NCBI GenBank assembly: GCA_900320955.1
Contig: ONUN01000004.1
Span: 1-34,608, forward strand
DNA length: 34,608 nucleotides
Source of the DNA: an uncultured Methanobrevibacter sp.
GTDB lineage: Archaea > Methanobacteriota > Methanobacteria > Methanobacteriales > Methanobacteriaceae
Direction of reading: 5' to 3'
Part shown: piece by piece, positions 30,487 through 32,225 of the stretch
Numbering within the stretch: position 1 is the stretch's first letter
Layout of the letters: the number at the start of each line of letters is the position of its first letter
Notes under the pieces: generated by a model
The model's input: the letters and a program-made list of their open reading frames with translations, nothing else
Databases searched by the model: none
What the model was told of the DNA's origin: nothing
Made by a program: the position numbers and the translations under genes

Positions 30487-30745
30487 TCACTTCCGCAATG
30501 CTTCATTTTTGAATAGCAGTTTTTGACATATCAGAATTATCAAAACGCTGCCCTTTAATGATTTCATTGATGTTTTTCACCAATGTTTCACATTCATTAT
30601 TTTCCAATTCACCTGCATATAATGAACTTTGAATCTTTCTAAGTCCATAATGCAAAAGCATATTTTCAATATTTTCCTGATTGGTTTTGAATTTGCAATC
30701 AAAAGTGGCTATAGCATATACATGAATTAACTTATATAAATTCAA
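30487..30745 (-). pseudogene. cas2: Frameshifted Cas2-like relic
   Basis: The minus-strand frame contains 'VYAIATFDCKFKTNQENIEN' then 'MLLHYGLRKIQSSLYAGELE', matching the Cas2 core: strand 1 with an acid (normally Y-D), then a helix with Y-G-L-x-x-I-Q-x-S-x-x-x-G-E-L. The frame then drifts to 'GQRFDNSDMSK'. In the neighbouring frame the expected Cas2 end appears as 'GSVLIILICQKLLFKNE', so one base has been lost or gained near 30545. The start is also damaged: no ATG, and the first codons fall inside the 184-bp repeat. No cas1 or other cas gene and no CRISPR array are visible. The gene is probably dead. Confidence 0.65.
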
Positions 30746-30904
30746 CTTTAAAATTAATGTTTTTAGAAATAGTTAATTTCATATGCTATGTTTAAATGAA
30801 AGCAATTTTACAAGGTCACAACAATTAAACAAAGCTAATACAATTAGAATAAGTTTAAATAAGATGAGCACAATAGAAATTAGTAATTATTAATGAATTA
30901 CATT
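30721..30904. repeat. 184-bp direct repeat, copy 1
   Basis: This segment matches 31942-32125 along 184 bp with no gaps and 8 mismatches (about 96% identity). It starts just inside the 5' end of the cas2-like relic and is AT-rich, with no ORF of its own. A CRISPR leader could be AT-rich and lie beside cas genes, but here it lies on the 5' side of cas2, and no repeat-spacer unit follows. Confidence 0.9.
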
Positions 30905-31039
30905 AAAGAAAAGTAAAAAATATGGGAAAAATCATATTTTCGAAATAAACTAAAATAGTTCATAAATAATTATTATTTTCAAGGATTATAATGAAAGAGG
31001 ATTATTGGAAGAAAAATATCCGAACAAGACAAATTTCAT

Positions 31040-31252
31040 TTGATTTGTGAATTGATAGATGTTTTTAAAAAGGGTGAAGATGTTGAAGTGGCTACAATTT
31101 GTAGCCAGTTGAAATTAAATTGCCACGGCTTAATAGAAGCCGTGGATTTTCTAGATTATTTTCTAGAGATCCACCAATTTAATAGACTCAGACCTATTAA
31201 ATGGTCTATGTTACCCGAAAATGAAGTTAATAATTTATTTAAAAATATTTAA
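31040..31252 (+). ncRNA. Hairpin array, candidate structured RNA (doubtful 70-codon TTG ORF)
   Basis: A TTG-started frame is open here, but the sequence is dominated by consecutive perfect stems: TGGCTAC/GTAGCCA (31089-31107, loop AATTT); CCACGGCTT/AAGCCGTGG (31123-31145, loop AATAG); GTGGAT/ATCCAC with inner TCTAGA/TCTAGA (31142-31174); ATTTAATAG/CTATTAAAT (31177-31202). Stems two and three share bases and cannot form together, and AGACC/GGTCT (31190-31207) competes with the last stem. Coding sequence would not be expected to do this, so a structured RNA or a set of DNA hairpins is more likely. Transcribed strand is unknown. An additional hairpin, AAAATATG/CATATTTT, precedes it at 30917-30940. 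Confidence 0.5.
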
Positions 31253-31941: not shown

Positions 31942-32125
31942 CATGAATTAACTTATATTAATTCAACTTTAAAATTAATGTTTTTAGAAATAGTTAACTT
32001 CATATGCTATTTTTAAATGAAAACAATTTTATAAGGTCACAACAATTAAACAAAGCTAATACAATTGGAATAAGTTTAAATAAGATGACCACAATAGAAA
32101 TTAATAATTATTAATGAATTACATT
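31942..32125. repeat. 184-bp direct repeat, copy 2
   Basis: Second copy of the repeat at 30721-30904, same orientation, same length, 8 mismatches. No cas2 sequence adjoins it. Each copy is followed, at different distances, by a full or partial copy of the secreted protein gene, which suggests that a block of about 1.2 kb was once duplicated in tandem and one half then decayed. The next ~95 bp (32126-32225) contain AT-rich sequence without a visible gene. Confidence 0.9.
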
Positions 32126-32225
32126 TAAATAACAAATATATAACTTCAAGTTACAATACCATAGAAAATTTTTGTTAATATCTAATTTTTTTAAAATACT
32201 AGTCTTTATAAATAACTAGTTACAT

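Follow-up and report, generated by a model that had tools for sequence, protein, structure and literature searches.

The window, a stretch of 34,608 nucleotides from a Methanobrevibacter genome (assembly GCA_900320955.1, contig ONUN01000004.1), contains an interval in which several perfect hairpins follow one another. A truncated Cas2 gene and a direct repeat that bounds the surrounding block (Table 1) are both present, as the first-pass annotation had described; a search of the genome itself with part of the repeat (30800-30907) revealed no third copy. A DNA search of 67 genomes of the genus returned three abutting homology blocks with sharp borders, which are those of the three relics listed in Table 1. 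The interval is a mosaic of the tail of a protein gene, a fragment of a bro-N gene and the first half of an omegaRNA, and is neither a novel RNA nor a switch.

Table 1. Features of the interval and its surroundings (window coordinates)
Feature	Position	Strand	Basis
Truncated Cas2 gene	30503-30745	-	PF09827, E 2.7e-8
187-bp direct repeat	30721-30907 and 31942-32128		95% identical
Stem AAAATATG/CATATTTT	30917-30940		AT-rich; further support looked for, none found
C-terminal relic of ~125-aa protein gene	30959-31071	+	Frame broken by 1-nt gap; DNA identity 78-82%
70-codon TTG frame, chimera through all three relics, no gene	31040-31252	+	Parts match different sources; no family match
bro-N (PF02498) gene fragment, codons EDVEVATICSQLK	31074-31114	+	98% over 41 nt (G010), 100% over 34 nt (G035)
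Palindrome in bro-N coding DNA, with the GGCTACAA/TTGTAGCC stem inside it	31083-31113		Perfect core TGGCTACAATTTGTAGCCA at 31089-31107; covariation seen in 90 bro-N genes, also with the putative recognition helix
Putative ~17-nt guide position of the former omegaRNA, equal to the insertion-site flank	31098-31114	+	Predicted from IscB omegaRNA anatomy; directly 5′ of scaffold start
HEARO/omegaRNA scaffold, 5′ half (guide-adaptor stems and next hairpin), without 3′ half	31115-31222	+	84% to G026 copy, model R1, covariation
Stem P1, 8 bp, TTAAATTG/CAATTTAA, around the CCACGGCTT hairpin (31123-31145) and the stem GTGGAT/ATCCAC (31142-31174)	31115-31182 (31115-31122 with 31175-31182)	+	Alignment, covariation, private compensatory change
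Stem CCACGGCTT/AAGCCGTGG	31123-31131 with 31137-31145	+	
Stem GTGGAT/ATCCAC, CTAGA/TCTAG stacked above	31142-31147 with 31169-31174	+	
Stem ATTTAATAG/CTATTAAAT, 9 bp	31177-31185 with 31194-31202	+	Private to window copy; competes with AGACC/GGTCT
omegaRNA hairpin AGACC/GGTCT	31190-31207 (31190-31194 with 31203-31207)	+	Covariation

The first relic derives from a gene for a ~125-aa protein, relatives of which are found in several genomes of the genus (L073, L076, L003 and L002) and which is an intact open reading frame in L002 and L003. In L002 this gene and bro-N adjoin in the same order as in the window, both intact, so that a deletion most likely joined the window's bro-N fragment to the end of the ~125-aa gene. 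The fragment retains 13 bro-N codons, too few for a Pfam match, though its DNA is 98-100% identical to bro-N genes; an intact bro-N gene matches PF02498, as does each of 31 sequences in a diverse alignment. Bro-N genes elsewhere are continuous across the position of the junction 31114/31115 and so provide the empty sites. Beyond the third block, residues 31223-31280 matched only AT-rich runs without common content in the genome itself. All named public records with the hairpin are from Methanobrevibacter, and the hairpin pattern was absent from the viral contigs searched.

A protein family match for the 70-codon frame, which the first-pass annotation had set against its reading as an RNA, was not found in Pfam or NCBIfam, as is explained by the frame being a chimera of the three relics. 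When the frame was extended upstream of its TTG and searched against 61 genomes only partial matches were seen, with different ones over different parts. While 85 codons are open without a stop, each part traces to a different source and the third overlies non-coding omegaRNA, and we consider it extremely improbable that the frame encodes a genuine small protein; the stems are not explained by it, as had been held.

Homology and decay of the omegaRNA half

The stems lie where the first-pass annotation had placed them, with the addition of P1, the closing stem, which it had missed. They are beyond chance: the fold of 31115-31222 has a predicted energy of -35.8 kcal/mol, shuffled sequences averaging -14.9 (sd 3.2; z = -6.6), and that of 30917-31207 gives z = -5.7, the real sequence being more stable than all of the 200 dinucleotide shuffles. 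Residues 31115-31222 are 84% identical to the first half of an omegaRNA in genome G026 (E 6e-26), whose immediate downstream neighbour is an intact IscB gene, and the window scores 100.5 bits (E 3.7e-19) against model R1, made without it. The copy L004, which is one of the partial matches of the frame, is a full HEARO/omegaRNA (RF02033, 110.8 bits) followed closely by a 418-aa IscB gene with RRXRR and HNH domains in Pfam (NF040563, E 4.8e-109). The full-length relatives exceed the cut-off of RF02033. The window itself gave no match to this covariance model over 31115-31222, whether at the gathering threshold or with the cut-off relaxed as far as E 10, where only chance matches were seen, because only half of the RNA remains.

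In an alignment of the 5′ half from 22 copies (the window and 21 others) 98.2% of stem cells are paired, and 11 of the 22 stem pairs have changed on both sides, which was equalled by none of 500 shuffles; compensatory changes in homologues, which had been proposed as a check, are therefore present. One compensatory change in P1, C31120T with G31177A, is private to the window, as is C31209T, a position where the 21 other copies all have the same base.

Two pairs of stems had been described as mutually exclusive, as in a switch. The overlaps are real in the sequence, with GTGG at 31142-31145 common to two stems and the last stem, ATTTAATAG/CTATTAAAT, overlapping AGACC/GGTCT. In the 21 relatives, however, the arm and loop corresponding to the last stem are exactly complementary over only 1-6 nt, so there is no evidence for a switch. 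The hairpins had also been taken as one RNA; this holds for those in 31115-31222 other than the private last stem, which are omegaRNA stems, but the GGCTACAA/TTGTAGCC hairpin is a DNA palindrome of bro-N.

In published structures the 5′ stems of the omegaRNA form the guide adaptor (PMC9581776; PMC9640706) and the guide of IscB omegaRNAs is 16-17 nt (PMC9640706). Like the HEARO/omegaRNAs of IscB elements (RF02033), the window has the homologous 5′ half with the same stems and the insertion-site flank at the guide position. Unlike them, it has lost the 3′ half with the partners of the nexus, central stem and pseudoknot, similarity ending at about 31222; it has no right element end CCTTGCCATAAGATAGATGAA, even with up to 3 mismatches allowed; and it carries the changed base at 31209. 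No IscB gene was found in the window or the assembly, a single match being confined to an HNH-like stretch, and the assembly (84% complete) has no other detectable HEARO RNA or IscB gene.

These comparisons show the remnant of an IscB element formerly in a bro-N gene and since eroded on both sides. An IscB (OMEGA) mobile element was inserted in the gene at the junction 31114/31115. On the left, most of bro-N was later lost and the remainder now continues the end of the gene before it, and on the right all of the element beyond the first ~108 nt of the omegaRNA is gone. The remnant is probably non-functional, its stems presumably still being present because the decay is recent, although with these stems intact and the private compensatory change in P1 it may have retained some function after divergence.

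Might the remnant still act as a shortened omegaRNA, for example as a decoy or by serving, in trans, an IscB from another source? In addition to the intact stems and the private pair in P1, the genus has solo omegaRNA elements without IscB, full-length ones among them, and standalone omegaRNAs working with IscB have been reported, as cited in PMC9581776. Those standalone RNAs, as described there, resemble the window in having no adjacent IscB gene but are full-length, whereas the window has the first half only and is relic-like. Disruption of the pseudoknots abolishes activity (PMC9581776; PMC9640706) and their partners are gone here, the assembly has no IscB, and no other half-length copy was seen in the 67 genomes except those truncated where a contig stops or decayed over their whole length. 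We therefore consider a functional shortened omegaRNA very unlikely. A recurrent class of half-length copies was likewise unsupported, as the contig of L118 stops within the copy and L113 was once full-length and has decayed. The original proposal, a new structured RNA or riboswitch-like element, draws on the very stable fold and the overlapping alternative stems, but it retains practically no probability, as the sequence is clearly homologous to a known class (the 5′ half of HEARO/omegaRNA), the last alternative stem occurs only in the window copy and the first hairpin is bro-N coding DNA.

The genus carries varied IscB elements. Six solo omegaRNA elements of ~335 bp were found at different sites (L043, L058, L062 and L064 in G087; L042 and L059 in G019), with no IscB in the flanks examined and with a right end, CCTTGCC...GATGAA, in common with IscB-bearing elements. 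They include the top HEARO scores of the genus and look like a non-autonomous, omegaRNA-only family that is still mobile. In two genomes different omegaRNA copies occupy the same place, which by its sequence is the 3′ end of a sucC-like gene (L062 1440-1500 and L113 1440-1500, the latter on the reverse strand); the L062 copy is an intact solo element and the L113 copy is decayed. An IscB/omegaRNA copy is inserted in a Virulence_RhuM (PF13310) gene in L004 (665-1525), where this was tested, and in L061, where it is apparent from the flank. The hairpin run itself is unremarkable: it is what decay has left of one IscB element, and the genus has many kinds, solo omegaRNA copies included.

A palindrome at fixed codons of bro-N

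Other bro-N genes have different palindromes at the same codons as the first hairpin of the window. We investigated this in 90 non-redundant bro-N genes, of which Methanobrevibacter supplied 21, IMG/VR contigs 60 and plasmid or phage records 9. Watson-Crick pairs account for 8.67 of 10 arm pairs at the fixed codons, compared with 2.58 (sd 0.56) at 189 other codon offsets in the same genes and 5.81 when the same peptides are synonymously recoded, a test that individually gave p <= 0.05 for 71 of the 90 genes. The three sources agree (8.6, 8.7 and 8.3 pairs). Among the 90 genes there are 37 different six-base half-sites, and their 540 core pairs comprise 495 Watson-Crick pairs, a single G.T and 44 that are neither. 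Nearly all of the bro-N genes studied have the palindrome, a few, such as L191, L192 and L257, having none. The first hairpin is a DNA-type palindrome in bro-N coding sequence, separate from the omegaRNA, whose sequence varies while its palindromy is kept.

In 17 Methanobrevibacter genomes, each scanned for one or other of two palindrome classes, exact copies were found only within bro-N genes or their relics, with one-mismatch sites outside bro-N in G018 and G025, and a second site within 2 mismatches of 12 was present at only 5 of 80 bro-N loci. A bro-N gene of the palindrome class of the window lies between cas4 and cas1b on the Arcobacter cloacae plasmid pACLO (L187 82-1989).

Coupling of the half-site to the encoded protein

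About ten codons upstream of the palindrome, three residues of the protein, one before a conserved YW and two after it, predict the half-site arm. AYWRK is found with GTGAC, KYWSV with CTAC, NYWKV with GTTAC, RYWSD with TACGA, KYW(S/G/N)D with TCCGA and DYWYR with TCGAC. Among pairs of genes less than 45% identical elsewhere, 5.36 of 6 arm bases agree where the triplet is the same (47 pairs) and 1.80 where it differs at all three residues (755 pairs). Given overall identity, helix and half-site show a partial Mantel correlation of 0.50, which none of 1000 permutations reached (maximum 0.11); distant control triplets gave -0.03 to 0.15 and overlapping or adjacent ones up to 0.33. As the helix and site are only some ten codons apart, exchange of a cassette could spread combinations, so that shared combinations are not all independent, and stratifying by identity limits this non-independence without removing it.

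In an AlphaFold2 model of Bro-N (mean pLDDT 86) the triplet lies in a helix formed by residues 43-56, preceded by a helix at 30-38 and followed by a beta hairpin at 66-83. This succession suggests a winged helix in which 43-56 would be the recognition helix. The half-site is coupled to three helix residues of this predicted winged-helix domain. The predicted fold matches dimers of DdrC (E about 5e-6), a DNA-binding and DNA-condensing protein of Deinococcus (PMC5436757).

From the sequences it would seem that Bro-N, as a DdrC-like dimer, binds a predicted operator inside its own gene. Were the palindrome an mRNA hairpin for control at the RNA level, its place in coding sequence and the short spacer between the arms, which could form a loop, would both be accounted for. 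As an RNA hairpin, however, the palindrome should tolerate G.U, which a double-stranded DNA site bound by a symmetric dimer should not, and the near absence of G.T pairs therefore disfavours this, as does a half-site that follows residues of the helix; we consider it unlikely. It is quite unlikely, too, that the palindrome is the target of mobile elements or of another protein and diversifies to escape them. The IscB element in the window did insert 7 nt from the palindrome, but escape would leave the coupling to the recognition-helix residues unexplained. The joint reading, an IscB relic in a bro-N gene whose product binds a predicted operator within that gene, is in our judgement highly probable.

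In this scheme a Bro-N dimer would sit on the palindrome within its own coding sequence and, when bound, would most likely repress its own transcription by acting as a roadblock. Autorepression is the least certain step, and we suggest it with less confidence, as we do the idea that half-sites diversify to avoid cross-talk among bro-N genes in one cell. LacI at O3 is an autorepressor that roadblocks its own transcription (PMC3711431), and the proposed Bro-N would resemble it as a DNA-binding protein that limits its own transcription. Unlike in LacI, the presumed operator of Bro-N is inside the codons of the DNA-binding domain and has diverged along with the recognition helix. We found no description of an intragenic Bro-N operator in the open literature, and a covarying intragenic palindrome coupled to a recognition helix is undescribed for DdrC or known Bro-N proteins in the literature searched; as the search covered open literature only, the novelty is provisional.

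The palindrome matters more than the hairpin run that contains it. It seems likely to us that Bro-N proteins, whether archaeal, bacterial or viral, regulate themselves, each with a private palindrome in the codons of its own DNA-binding domain. Helix and operator would then form one small exchangeable cassette, with dozens of half-sites and a natural recognition code that may be read from single genes. If this is true, Bro-N, a widespread but poorly understood family on viral contigs, plasmids and chromosomes, would gain a mechanism, and a recognition code could be studied in a data set of helix-to-site pairs that nature offers by the dozen.
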